Below, piece after piece: positions 22,307 through 26,594 of a stretch of 34,527 nt of DNA. A program made the translations under genes and the position numbers. The notes under the pieces are model-generated. The model saw only the letters and a list, made by a program, of their open reading frames with translations, was not told the origin of the DNA and ran no database searches. The stretch comes from Bacillota bacterium (GTDB lineage: Bacteria > Bacillota > Sulfobacillia > JAJZYS01 > JAJYTV01): positions 1-34,527 of the forward strand of contig JAJZAT010000032.1 of the NCBI GenBank assembly GCA_021799275.1, in the 5' to 3' direction. Numbering within the stretch: the stretch's first letter is position 1; the number at the start of each line of letters is the position of its first letter.

Positions 22307-24238
22307 TTGGCGCAGCACACGGCTTCGTACGGCTCGTGGCGTTCTCCGATCACCTCGAATCTCATCGTACGGTCGGGGATTGGCCTAAGTGAGACAAGAC
22401 TTGGGCGGGAAGGCGGGTGCTGGCTCGAGACACGCCCCGCCGAGGGGGGGCGCAGTGTGGTCGTGCGCCTAAAGGACGGCAGGCCGGAAGACTGGCTGCC
22501 CCAGGGCTGGAATGCGCGCACCATGGTGCACGAGTACGGCGGGGGTTCCTATCTCGCCTTGCCGGGACAACTCTTGTTCGCCAACTTCGAGGATCAGCGG
22601 ATATATCGCCTTGACAACCAGGCGGAACCACGGGTGGTCACGGCCGAGGGGCCGGTCCGTTACGCCGATTTCGAACCGGACCTGGGACGGGGTCGGCTGC
22701 TGTGCGTGCGGGAAGATCACCGCGTGGCGGGACGCCAGGCCGTGAACAGCCTGGTCGCGGTCGACCTGGAGGGCGATACCTACGGCACGGTGCTCGCGCA
22801 AGGCCGCGACTTCTACGCGGCGCCCCGCCTCAGCCCAGACGGCCAAAGGCTCGCATGGCTGTCCTGGAACCATCCCAATATGCCCTGGGACGGCTGCGAA
22901 CTGTACGTGGCGGATGTGGTTGATGGCGGGACGCTCGGGACTCCGCGGCACGTGGCGGGGGGGCCGGAGGAATCCATCTTCCAGCCGACCTGGTCGCCGG
23001 ACGGCGACCTCTACTTCGCGTCCGACCGCACGGAATTCTGGAATCTCTACGCGTTCAGGGACGGAGCCGTCCTGGCGCTCCATCCCATGGCGGCCGAGTT
23101 CGGCAAGCCGCAGTGGCGCTTCGGCATGAGCACCTTCGCCTTCATGTCGCGAAGGCGTCTCCTCTGCATCTACGACCTCGGCGGCGTCTCGCACCTCGCC
23201 GAGTTCGACGAGGAGCGGGGGACGCTCCGTGAGATCCCGCTGCCTTACACCTCGATGGCTTACCTCTCGGTTTCAGGGGACCGTGCGCTCTTCGTGGCGG
23301 GATCGCCGACCCAGTCCGGCAACGTGGTGGAGCTCGACATCCCGTCGGGGAAGCTCTCGGTGCTCCGGCAGTCGAGCCAGGTGCAGGTCGACGAGGGGTA
23401 TCTCTCCAGCCCCGAGACCGTCTCGTTCCCGACCGGTCAGGGCGAGACGGCCCACGCCTTCTACTACCCTCCCCGCAACCGGGACTACGAAGGGCCGGCA
23501 GGAGAGACGCCGCCGCTCATCGTGATGAGCCACGGCGGCCCGACCAGCAGCACGTCCGCGGTCCTGGACCTGCACGTCCAGTACTGGACGAGTCGCGGCC
23601 TCGCCGTCGTCGATGTCAATTACCGCGGTTCGTCGGGTTACGGCCGACCTTACCGCGACCGCCTCAAGGGCAACTGGGGTCTCGTGGACGTGGAGGACTG
23701 CGAGGCGGCGGCGATCCATCTGATCCGCCAGGGCAAGGCCGATCCGGAGCGCATCGCCATCCGCGGCGGCAGCGCGGGCGGCTACACCACGCTCGTCGCG
23801 CTCAGCACCCGCGACACGTTCAAGGCGGGCGCGAGCCTGTTCGGCATTGGCGATCTCGAGGTCTTCACCGGCGACACGCACAAGTTCGAGTCCAGGTATA
23901 TGGACTCGCTGGTCGGCCCCTATCCCGAAAAGCGGGACATCTACCAGGAACGCTCGCCGATCCGGCACCTGGACGGCTTCAACGCGCCCTGCATTTTCTT
24001 CCAGGGCCTCGACGACAAGATCGTGCCGCCGAACCAGGCGGAACTGATGGTCGACGCGCTGCGCAAAAAGGGTGTGCCAGTGGCCTGTCTCGCATATCCG
24101 GGCGAGGGCCACGGGTTCCGCAAGGCGGAGAACATCCGGCGCACGCTCGAGGCGGAACTTTACTTCTATAGCCGCATCTTCCGCTTCGCACTGCCGGAGC
24201 CCGTCGCGCCCGTCAAGGTCGAAAACCTGGATGGCTGA
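22307..24238 (+). CDS. S9-family peptidase (prolyl oligopeptidase/acylaminoacyl peptidase type)
   Basis: 643-aa cytoplasmic serine peptidase with an N-terminal beta-propeller (WSPDGDLYFAS, LSPDGQRLAWLSWN repeats, up to about residue 370) and a C-terminal alpha/beta hydrolase domain. The catalytic triad is Ser489 in GGSAGG, Asp570 in GLDDKIVPP and His602 in GEGHGF. The HGGP motif in MSHGGPTS forms the oxyanion hole. These enzymes cut short peptides or remove N-terminal acyl-amino acids. TTG 22307 has GGGAGGG (22294-22300) six bases before it and gives a family-typical N-terminus, AQHTASYGSWRSPITSNLIV. A longer frame from TTG 22280 has no RBS. No signal peptide. The nucleotidyltransferase gene overlaps its end by 8 bases. 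Confidence 0.93.
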   Translation: MAQHTASYGSWRSPITSNLIVRSGIGLSETRLGREGGCWLETRPAEGGRSVVVRLKDGRPEDWLPQGWNARTMVHEYGGGSYLALPGQLLFANFEDQRIYRLDNQAEPRVVTAEGPVRYADFEPDLGRGRLLCVREDHRVAGRQAVNSLVAVDLEGDTYGTVLAQGRDFYAAPRLSPDGQRLAWLSWNHPNMPWDGCELYVADVVDGGTLGTPRHVAGGPEESIFQPTWSPDGDLYFASDRTEFWNLYAFRDGAVLALHPMAAEFGKPQWRFGMSTFAFMSRRRLLCIYDLGGVSHLAEFDEERGTLREIPLPYTSMAYLSVSGDRALFVAGSPTQSGNVVELDIPSGKLSVLRQSSQVQVDEGYLSSPETVSFPTGQGETAHAFYYPPRNRDYEGPAGETPPLIVMSHGGPTSSTSAVLDLHVQYWTSRGLAVVDVNYRGSSGYGRPYRDRLKGNWGLVDVEDCEAAAIHLIRQGKADPERIAIRGGSAGGYTTLVALSTRDTFKAGASLFGIGDLEVFTGDTHKFESRYMDSLVGPYPEKRDIYQERSPIRHLDGFNAPCIFFQGLDDKIVPPNQAELMVDALRKKGVPVACLAYPGEGHGFRKAENIRRTLEAELYFYSRIFRFALPEPVAPVKVENLDG

Positions 24239-24565
24239 ACGGAGACTCGTGGCCGAGGCGTTCCGGGACCTGCCGCAGCAGGTCGCAGGCTGGCTTCAGG
24301 ACCTGGCGCAGGAGATCGGCGCCTGCTTCGGGCACCACCTCGAAGGCATCTACCTGCATGGTTCGCTCGCCATGACCGGCTTCTGCGCCGCGTCGTCCGA
24401 TGTGGACCTGCTGGTCGCGGTCGAGAGCCGGCCCGCAGCGGGAGAGACAGCGTGCCTGCGCCGCCTGCTGCTTTCAAAGTCCGAGCATCCCTACGACGTG
24501 GAACTCTCGGTCCTCGCGCGTGCCGATCGCTATCCCTGGCGCCACCCGTCACCGTTCTCCTGGCA
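24231..24565 (+). pseudogene. AadA-like nucleotidyltransferase, 5' part, split by IS110 element
   Basis: N-terminal 111 codons of a nucleotidyltransferase related to aminoglycoside adenylyltransferases. The catalytic motif YLHGSLAMTGFCAASSDVDLLVAV is intact: GSxAMTG followed by SDVDLL, where two aspartates bind Mg. The frame then reads PWRHPSPFSWH and enters the inserted element, which gives stop TGA after WHFC. Joining position 24565 to 26102 gives SWHYSESWRDAM and one frame of 275 codons, so the gene was disrupted without loss of bases. The ATG overlaps the end of the peptidase gene. Normal AadA proteins have about 260 aa, so the restored length fits. The native substrate is unknown. Confidence 0.88.
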
Positions 24566-24611
24566 TTTCTGCTGAATGTCATTTCTGCTGAATGTCATTT
24601 CTGCTGAATGT
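24564..24611. repeat. three tandem copies of a 16-bp unit at the IS110 end
   Basis: CATTTCTGCTGAATGT occurs three times without change. The first CA is the junction dinucleotide with the host gene, and every copy begins with that same CA. So the terminal recognition sequence of the element appears to be present in triplicate. Confidence 0.93.
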
Positions 24612-24634
24612 CAAGCCTCAGCGCCTGGCACTTT

Positions 24635-24732
24635 CCTCCTGACCGGCTCCTGAGAGGCGTCTGGGGCAAGGCGTCGCCGAGGCTTGCCCGAGGCAAGCCT
24701 TGCCTATACTAGCGAAGGGGCCGGTCAGGAGG
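24635..24732. repeat. inverted repeat enclosing a hairpin downstream of the IS110 transposase
   Basis: A perfect 13-bp inverted repeat, cctcctgaccggc (24635-24647) with gccggtcaggagg (24720-24732), encloses a second perfect 9-bp hairpin (24680-24688 with 24692-24700, 3-base loop). It lies between the transposase stop and the element end, so it may end the transposase mRNA, hold a structured RNA, or protect the end. Confidence 0.8.
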
Positions 24733-24741
24733 CGTGAGAGC

Positions 24742-25863
24742 CTATCCGGTCTCGGTGGCTCGAGGCTCCGCGACAGCGGCCTGCACCAAGAAGGGGTACT
24801 CTCTGGCCCGGCGTTCCATCTGGCGGAGTTTCACCGGCAGCGTGCGCACCTTGGGCTCGCGAACGCCGCCGGGGATCGGCTTCTTCAGCTGGAGCAGGCC
24901 CCAGATGAGCCCGAGCAGCGTACGCGCCACTGCGACGATCGCGATCTTGTGCCCTGTCTTGTTGTCGCCACGCTTGGCGACGATGCGCTGGTACTTCGCC
25001 GCGAGTAGAGGGGAGTACGCAAGCGCCTTCCAGGACACCCGGATCAGCACCGTCCGTAGCAGGGAACGCCCTTGCTTGGAGATCGAGCCCATGCGCAGTG
25101 TGTTGCCGGAGGCGTGGATGCTGGGCGTGATCCCAGCGTAGGAGTAGAGATTCGCCGCCCGTGGAAAGCGCTCGATGTCTCCGATCTCGGCCATGATCGA
25201 GATGGCTGAGAGGGCGTCGATGCCCGGGATGCCCATCAGGGCCTCGAGCTGCCAGGCGGGAATCACCTGCTTGCCTTGCAGCAGGAGGTCTCCTTCAAGA
25301 GCGGCGGTCTCCTCGTTGAGGTAGGCGATGTGCCGTAGGGCGCTCGCCACGGCGACCTGGCTCGGATGGGAAAGGCGAGAGTCGTTGGAGCTGGCCTGCT
25401 GCAAGACCTCGCCTTTCTTCATGCGCACACCGGCTCGCCGGTAGGTGGCGTAGATGCCGTTCGCCTCCCGGGTCTGAGCGGTGATCAACTTCTCACGCCG
25501 ATGAACGGCAGCCCTCAGCTCGCGCTGTGCCGGCGCCGGCACCCAGACCTCCGGGATCACGTCCGCCTTCAGCAGCAGGGCCAGCTTTTCGCTATCCAGC
25601 TTGTCGGTCTTCATGCGGGACGACGCGATCCACCTTAGGTACAGTGGGTGAGCTACCGCGACCCGCTTGACGTGGGGCAGCAGGACATCGTGGATGTGGA
25701 ACGCGTTGGTGGAGGCCTCCAGCACCACCTCGGCGTCAGGATCCAGGCCCGCGGCCCAGAACTCCAGATTCTCGAGATCTACGCGTACGCGGGACTTCTT
25801 GTCGTCCCGCAGAGTGGTTGCCACCAGGAACGTCGAGTGGGCGTCCACCCCGATGTACGTCAC
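24742..25863 (-). CDS. IS110-family DEDD transposase/recombinase
   Basis: 373-aa site-specific recombinase. The N-terminal RuvC-like DEDD domain shows YIGVDAHS (first Asp), VVLEAS (Glu) and RMKTDKLDSEKLALLLKADVIPEVWVP (Asp-Asp pair). The C-terminal Transposase_20 domain shows LMGIPGIDALSAISIMAEIGDIERFPRAANLYSYAGITPSIHASGNTLRMGSISKQGRSLLR, with the conserved catalytic serine region around SGNT. A coiled-coil linker lies between. GTG 25863 has AGGAG at 25872-25876 with an 8-base spacer; TTG 25866 is possible. Both catalytic domains look complete, so the element may still be active. The end of the protein is basic. Confidence 0.94.
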   Translation of the reverse strand: MTYIGVDAHSTFLVATTLRDDKKSRVRVDLENLEFWAAGLDPDAEVVLEASTNAFHIHDVLLPHVKRVAVAHPLYLRWIASSRMKTDKLDSEKLALLLKADVIPEVWVPAPAQRELRAAVHRREKLITAQTREANGIYATYRRAGVRMKKGEVLQQASSNDSRLSHPSQVAVASALRHIAYLNEETAALEGDLLLQGKQVIPAWQLEALMGIPGIDALSAISIMAEIGDIERFPRAANLYSYAGITPSIHASGNTLRMGSISKQGRSLLRTVLIRVSWKALAYSPLLAAKYQRIVAKRGDNKTGHKIAIVAVARTLLGLIWGLLQLKKPIPGGVREPKVRTLPVKLRQMERRAREYPFLVQAAVAEPRATETG

Positions 25864-25904
25864 CAATCGTGCTCCTTCCTCGGATCCGATTGGGCGTAGG
25901 CTGA

Positions 25905-26012
25905 ACCCGGCATCCATTTCTCCGCGACTTCCGCATGTGGGCTGATGCGCCGGGTCGGGAGAGGCCAAACACTACAACGGGGCTTCACCCATGCCAAGAA
26001 TCGGCCTCTCCC
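25905..26012 (-). ncRNA. candidate IS110 bridge RNA (target loop and donor loop)
   Basis: Two adjacent stem-loops, one base apart, lie upstream of the transposase. The first (in transcription order) has a perfect 10-bp stem, 26003-26012 with 25957-25966, and a 36-base loop. The second has a perfect 7-bp stem, 25949-25955 with 25905-25911, and a 37-base loop. In the first loop, 25970-25979 matches the right host flank 26100-26109 in 9 of 10 bases, and 25992-25999 is complementary to the left flank 24558-24565 in 7 of 8. In the second loop, the RNA segment GGAGAAATG matches the complement of the element end CATTTCTGC in 8 of 9. This is the layout of target-binding and donor-binding loops known from the IS621 bridge RNA. 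Exact RNA ends are unknown. Confidence 0.72.
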
Positions 26013-26101
26013 ACTCCCACGCTGGCCGGGAAACCCTTGCCTCGCCCGAGTATTGGGAGAATCGAAGGCTTCTCAATCCGGCCGTTCCAAGCATGCCAAC
26101 A

Positions 26102-26594
26102 CTACAGCGAGAGCTGGCGAGACGCCATGGCACGCGAAGAGGCAGGCGGCCCGCCGGCCGGGCTGCCGCCGGTCGACGAGGACCTCGCGGCGCATGTCAC
26201 CATGGTGCGGGCGCGAGGCCGCAGTCTCTGCGGACTGCCGATCGAGGCCGCGTTCCCCGAGGTGCCGCCGCGGGACTTCCTCGACGCCGTCTTCACGCCC
26301 GATGTGGACCGACGATGCGAGAGCGTGAGGGCGGAGCCGGTGGACTGCGTCCTCAATCTTTGCCGGATCGGCCTCTACGCGTACGAGGGCTCCCTGGCGT
26401 CGAAGATTGAGGGGGGCCTATGGGCCCTCTCCTGCGATGCACCGGGGGAACACGAGGTCATACGCCGCGCGCTCCACGGCTACCGTACGGGCGAGCCGGT
26501 CTCGTGGACGGACGAAGAGCTCCGTCGCTTCACCCGAACCTGGACGCGCGCGATCGCGCGGCGACTGCGCGGGGGCCCGGAGGCCGCGACGTGA
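26102..26594 (+). pseudogene. AadA-like nucleotidyltransferase, 3' part
   Basis: C-terminal part of the gene split by the IS110 element. It begins in the codon for His of the rebuilt WHYSESWRDAM and runs to TGA at 26594. The conserved helical domain of this family is visible: GLPIEAAFPEVPPRDFLDAV, CVLNLCRIGLYAYEGSLASKIEGGLWAL, ALHGYRTGEPVSWTDEELRRF. In AadA-like enzymes this domain closes over the substrate. No frameshift or stop is present, so the damage is only the insertion. As it stands, this half has no start that would give an active enzyme, although ATG 26127 could be used. Confidence 0.85.

Follow-up and report, generated by a model that had tools for sequence, protein, structure and literature searches.

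The element and its interrupted target gene

The DNA analysed here, a stretch of 34,527 nucleotides (the window), carries an insertion element with two hairpins upstream of its transposase gene, which a sequence-only reading had taken for a bridge RNA that faces its insertion flanks in an orientation opposite to that of IS621. Two questions arise from this locus: do the hairpins correspond to a bridge RNA (seekRNA), and, if so, in which order do its guides read the two flanks of the target? As argued below, we conclude with a probability of about 0.92 that the feature is a bridge RNA/seekRNA of the IS110 superfamily that has the guide order of the IS1111 group, and whose gene is located upstream of the transposase gene. 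The element consists of the following parts:

24566..26101, minus strand: whole insertion element of the IS110 superfamily, 1536 bp counting one copy of the core
24564-24565 and 26100-26101: CA cores bounding the element
24742..25863, minus strand: transposase/recombinase of the IS110 superfamily, 373 aa (NCBIfam NF033542 and Pfam PF02371)
25864..26099, minus strand: left end, 5' non-coding, encoding the bridge RNA; this non-coding upstream region is kept in relatives
24564..24611, no strand assigned: right terminus, three tandem 16-bp copies, each with the core CA at its start

The transposase matches NF033542 with 190 bits (cut-off 140), and the DEDD RuvC residues and C-terminal SG of its Transposase_20 domain, which characterise the IS110 superfamily, align to residues D11, E60, D102, D105 and S241 of IS621. 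The ends of the element are supported by the clean empty site that results when the flanks are joined over one common CA, across which the interrupted frame stays open. Moreover, the left-end motif (TG followed by TTGGCATG) and the right end are both conserved among relatives, and, as is typical of insertions of this superfamily, the element in the window shows no target duplication beyond the shared core. The gene that it splits is aminoglycoside-adenylyltransferase-like (parts 24231-24563 and 26102-26594): its N-terminal part resembles Polbeta, a weak match under the Pfam cut-off, and its C-terminal part resembles AadA_C.

The non-coding region upstream of the transposase gene is 236 nt long, and such a long upstream region is a feature of the IS110 group. 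The right end, which is short in most relatives, is also long in the window element (about 176 nt). It contains a long inverted repeat, CCTCCTGACCGGC / GCCGGTCAGGAGG (24635-24732 in the window), whose arms differ in the close relatives L003 and L006 by a matching insertion that preserves pairing; relatives with short right ends do not have this repeat. The right terminus, present in three copies in the window element, is single in L006. Tandem copies of element ends, with units bounded by the core dinucleotide, were also observed elsewhere, namely as two 42-bp units in the right end of L041 and as a left-end duplication in an IS621 copy (L048, about 1590-1760). Such copies may be the footprint of repeated recombination at core-like sites.

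Anatomy of the bridge RNA

The two hairpins that had been described side by side on the minus strand are indeed present upstream of the transposase gene (26012 to 25957 and 25955 to 25905), and the four loop segments picked out in them read as they had been given and are the guides:

25957..26012, minus strand: target-binding hairpin, 10-bp stem and 36-nt loop
25905..25955, minus strand: donor-binding hairpin, a segment conserved in relatives
25992..26000, minus strand: 5' target guide with core, TTCTTGGCA, complementary to the transposase-sense strand of the right-end flank
25970..25979, minus strand: 3' target guide with core, CGTTGTAGTG, same sense as the left-end flank
25936..25942, minus strand: 5' donor guide, GCCCACA, which by direct reading complements the left terminus at all positions but one
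25915..25923, minus strand: 3' donor guide, GGAGAAATG, same sense as the right terminus GCAGAAATG
24557..24563, plus strand: target flank adjoining the right end, CTCCTGG
26102..26109, plus strand: target flank adjoining the left end, CTACAGCG

Thus, the guides of one loop match the flanks of the target and those of the other match the ends of the element, which is what defines a bridge RNA or seekRNA. Counted outward from the core, the 5' target guide shows five matches and two U/C wobbles over 7 positions, and the 3' target guide seven matches and one wobble over 8 positions. When joined, the guides predict TCTTGGCACTACAACG as the empty site, and the flanks read TCCTGGCACTACAGCG, so that 14 of 16 positions are identical; the probability that a single site named in advance would reach 14/16 or more by chance is 2.6e-7. 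Both differences between the predicted and the actual empty site are of the G-U type, as had been suggested for several of the mismatches. A short target composed of the two half-sites would read TCCTGGCA-CTACAGCG.

Compared with shuffled sequence, the target hairpin is much more stable, with a z score of -4.3; both hairpins together with their surroundings (132 nt) have a z score of -2.6, and the donor hairpin alone does not fold significantly (z -0.9). An Rfam search of the window returned tRNAs only and no bridge RNA family.

Guides and flanks change together among relatives

About 21 relatives carry the same RNA with different guides. The source genome itself contains one full copy and an RNA-bearing remnant without the gene. 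In this remnant (L002, 1256-1495) the donor loop is kept, the target loop is altered, a case of natural reprogramming, and the transposase gene has been lost. A second locus, in a closely related genome (L003/L006), carries a near-identical transposase; the element there is 5'-truncated and has lost its RNA, and its right-end flank, GTTGGCA, is close to the 5' guide TCTTGGCA. The nearest relatives with intact RNA have transposases that are only 37-41% identical to that in the window, and the more distant relatives (about 30-41% identity) belong to the same class and phylum. No relative was found in viral contigs scanned with the transposase.

The upstream regions of the relatives align as one RNA, which consists of a variable guide, a conserved TGGGC...GCCC hairpin, a second variable guide, TG, a closing stem and the donor loop. 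RNAalifold finds the target stem with its inner hairpin as well as the inner hairpin of the donor loop, and for 11 of the 18 predicted pairs at least one sequence has changes on both sides that preserve pairing. Hence the stems, whose lack of conservation would have spoken against the proposal, are conserved.

We compiled a guide table of 22 elements including that in the window, three of which have no usable right flank and two no usable left flank. L021, L030 and L040, in which no RNA was recognised upstream, were left out, as were L027 and L041, whose RNAs duplicate those of L022 and L036, respectively. Own guide-flank pairs were then compared with swapped pairs by permutation, using 15 non-redundant elements per test. 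Across the clade, the 3' guide resembles, in the same sense, the flank at the left end, and the 5' guide complements that at the right end. Own pairs agree at 5.2-5.3 of 8 positions and swapped pairs at 3.0-3.2; p is about 1e-5 for either side, and this value also holds without the window element. The IS621-type assignment gave no signal on the same elements (p 0.86-0.87). We placed element ends and guide limits by eye, following conserved motifs and allowing a shift of one base. This is a weakness; however, the opposite assignment fails completely on the same table. The donor 3' guide likewise co-varies with the right terminus (p=0.00002, 18 elements), and the match of the donor 5' guide is weaker across relatives. 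Guides fit their flanks poorly in L010 and L034. In summary, the guides match flanks and ends and change together with them in other elements, and this bears out the proposed identity of the RNA.

Some of the relatives occupy particular sites. L035, L036 and L041 are inserted beside a gene for a group II intron-type reverse transcriptase, at a site that their guides match and that is apparently the 3' end of group II introns. L009 has landed in another element of its own lineage, within the left end, and both its guides match this site.

The guide order is that of the IS1111 group

The order of the guides can be compared with that of two reference systems. In an E. coli record of IS621, the 5' guide ATCGGGC-CT corresponds to the left-end flank ATCAGGC-CT, and the 3' guide complements the right flank. 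As an IS1111 reference we used IS4321, whose RNA lies downstream of the transposase gene and whose hairpin and guides were picked by eye. Its loop reads AAAACGGAA...TATATTTT; in it, the 5' guide complements the right flank and the 3' guide resembles the left one. It has been reported that the guide order of IS1111 seekRNAs is the reverse of that of the one IS110 member tested (Siddiquee et al. 2024, PMC11187229). In the IS110-group order, that of IS621 and ISEc21, the match to the bottom strand lies 5' of the match to the top strand; the window element does not have this order but that of the IS1111 group, in which the complement of the top strand lies 5' of the bottom-strand match. Since the order in the window agrees with both IS4321 and the account of Siddiquee et al., it is the IS1111 order. 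The reversal noticed in the sequence-only reading is therefore real with respect to an actual IS621 record; it is not new in itself, because it has been published for IS1111 seekRNAs and is seen in IS4321. Neither is it a quirk of a single copy, an explanation that we rejected: the reversed order is clade-wide, being common to about 20 relatives and to the group of ISAtu7 and ISMch4.

In other respects the element resembles IS621 (Durrant et al. 2024, PMC11208160). Both have an RNA that lies upstream of the recombinase gene and runs in its direction, a target loop followed by a donor loop, guides that each include the core, a circle-junction promoter, and DEDD and serine residues in the recombinase. 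They differ in that the left-end flank is read by the 5' guide in IS621 and by the 3' guide here, the right side being swapped too. ISEc21, of the IS110 group, shares the upstream seekRNA, but its published guide order is opposite and its transposase is distant in the tree. IS4321 and the IS1111 seekRNAs (PMC11187229) share with the window element the guide order and the loop layout (guide, small hairpin, guide), whereas their RNA is downstream of the transposase gene and their transposases are about 24% identical to that in the window. The 7/3 subterminal inverted repeats of the IS1111 group are found in relatives but not in the window element. Finally, ISAtu7 and ISMch4, named elements of plasmids, have an upstream RNA, the same guide order and a related transposase (about 32-34% identical), but their RNA is shorter and their cores and ends are different.

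Two further traits of the IS1111 group are a downstream non-coding region and subterminal repeats of about 11-13 bp with outer spacings of 7 bp and 3 bp. In the window element the RNA is upstream of the transposase gene, and only a 4-bp repeat, TGCT, is present at this spacing. Long subterminal inverted repeats with the IS1111 7/3 spacing do occur in the relatives L037 (TGTTGGC-ATGATAAAACCGCAACC... and ...GGTTGCGGTTTTTCAT-AGG-TG) and L014, yet their RNA is upstream. In the transposase tree, the window element falls into a lineage of 23 members (94/90), ISAtu7 and ISMch4 among them; IS621, ISEc21 and four IS1111 references (100/100) lie outside this lineage, and the deeper order is unsure because branches are long. 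ISAtu7 and four relatives also follow the IS1111 order of guides (exact permutation p 0.017 and 0.042), and the empty site of ISAtu7 is present in another Ti plasmid, pTiCG920. The unusual property of these elements is thus that the IS1111 guide order, with 7/3 repeats in relatives, goes together with an RNA located upstream as in the IS110 group. It follows that guide order and RNA position are separable.

We also briefly inspected an IS110 element of Enterococcus faecium (L061, 180-240; L051, 240-660), which targets TTTCCTCCT, a motif like a ribosome-binding site, and found no clear guide order in it. In one copy the left flank equals a segment of the element's non-coding region, as though the insertion had taken place in the guide region of the element itself.

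A putative promoter at the circle junction and a proposed model for recombination

Three boxes at the two ends of the element may take part in its expression:

24609..24614, minus strand: -35 box TTGACA, right end, used only in the circle junction
24577-24582, minus strand: alternative -35 box ATGACA for the outermost copy of the terminus
26090..26095, minus strand: -10 box CATGCT, left end, separated from the -35 box by 17 bp once the circle has formed

Nearly every circle examined has such a junction promoter (TTGACA or a close -35 box, followed by a -10 box); the spacing is 17 bp in almost all cases, and the promoter is directed along the transposase strand. Promoters of this kind have been published for IS621 (Durrant et al. 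2024, PMC11208160); for ISEc11 and ISEc21 they have been stated to exist (Siddiquee et al. 2024, PMC11187229).

On the basis of these features we envisage the following process. Excision would yield a circle in which the junction of the two ends restores a promoter, with the -35 box from the right end and the -10 box from the left end. This promoter, which is conserved in sequence, would read the RNA and then the transposase gene. The RNA would presumably form a ribonucleoprotein, in which the first loop would engage the two target strands separately, its 3' guide pairing with one of them at the flank next to the left end and its 5' guide with the other at the flank next to the right end. Both pairings would include the core CA/TG, where they overlap. 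In the same manner, the second loop would pair with the joined ends of the element itself, and the DEDD/serine recombinase, by analogy with IS621, would exchange strands at the core.

Alternative explanations

It could be argued that the matches are due to chance, or are remnants of target sequence rather than guides, as the segments are short, contain several mismatches and match poorly in L010 and L034. This explanation is hardly credible given 14/16 identical positions at a single insertion site (2.6e-7), and it is refuted by the permutation of own and swapped pairs, which gives p about 1e-5 on both sides with the window element omitted too; the donor guide, moreover, co-varies as well. We also consider it very improbable that the RNA belongs to the ordinary bridge RNAs of the IS110 group, with guides ordered as in IS621, and that its orientation was misjudged in the sequence-only reading. 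Although its location upstream of the transposase gene is like that in IS621 and ISEc21, the corresponding assignment gives p 0.86-0.87, while the real IS621 record, read in the same way, does show the IS621 order. In addition, the ends would have to be misassigned in all relatives, against which the empty site of ISAtu7 argues. Likewise very improbable is a functional RNA transcribed from the opposite strand, antisense to the transposase gene. A DNA hairpin exists on both strands, and the wobbles between guides and flanks (11 versus 7) do not clearly favour either of them. However, the stem pairs are rich in G-U and nearly without A-C on the transposase strand, so that these G-U pairs would become mismatches on the other strand, and the circle-junction promoter points along the transposase strand.

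The alternative that deserves most consideration is that the element is a member of the IS1111 group with a displaced non-coding region. This is a matter of filing, with the same mechanism as in the explanation that we prefer, and we regard it as possible though not the likelier classification. The guide order, the loop layout and the 7/3 subterminal repeats of relatives are all IS1111-like, and a few IS1111 members are known to have upstream regions (Siddiquee et al. 2024, PMC11187229). On the other hand, the transposase falls in the separate 23-member lineage outside the four IS1111 references, in a tree of unsure deeper order, and the window element has only the 4-bp relic of the repeats.

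Implications

We therefore favour a bridge RNA with IS1111 guide order encoded upstream of the transposase gene, and it is this combination that may be new. No description of the reversed order together with an upstream RNA was found in the main texts of the journal articles searched, and Extended Data Fig. 10c of Durrant et al. might hold a case. It seems to us somewhat more probable than not that a large, mostly untested lineage joins the IS1111-type order to an upstream RNA, and that the order follows the lineage of the recombinase and its RNA and not the position of the RNA. If true, this would constitute a third layout beside the IS621 type and the IS1111 type. Work is under way to turn bridge RNAs into programmable DNA-insertion tools; these need the correct guide-to-flank rule for target prediction, and applying the IS621 rule to the upstream-RNA elements of this lineage would misassign left and right, so that an insert would be placed backwards or the target missed. 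Moreover, RNA position and guide order, which are linked in the published comparison of the IS110 and IS1111 groups, would be uncoupled in this lineage, and this would bear on the question of how the RNA moved between the ends of these elements.
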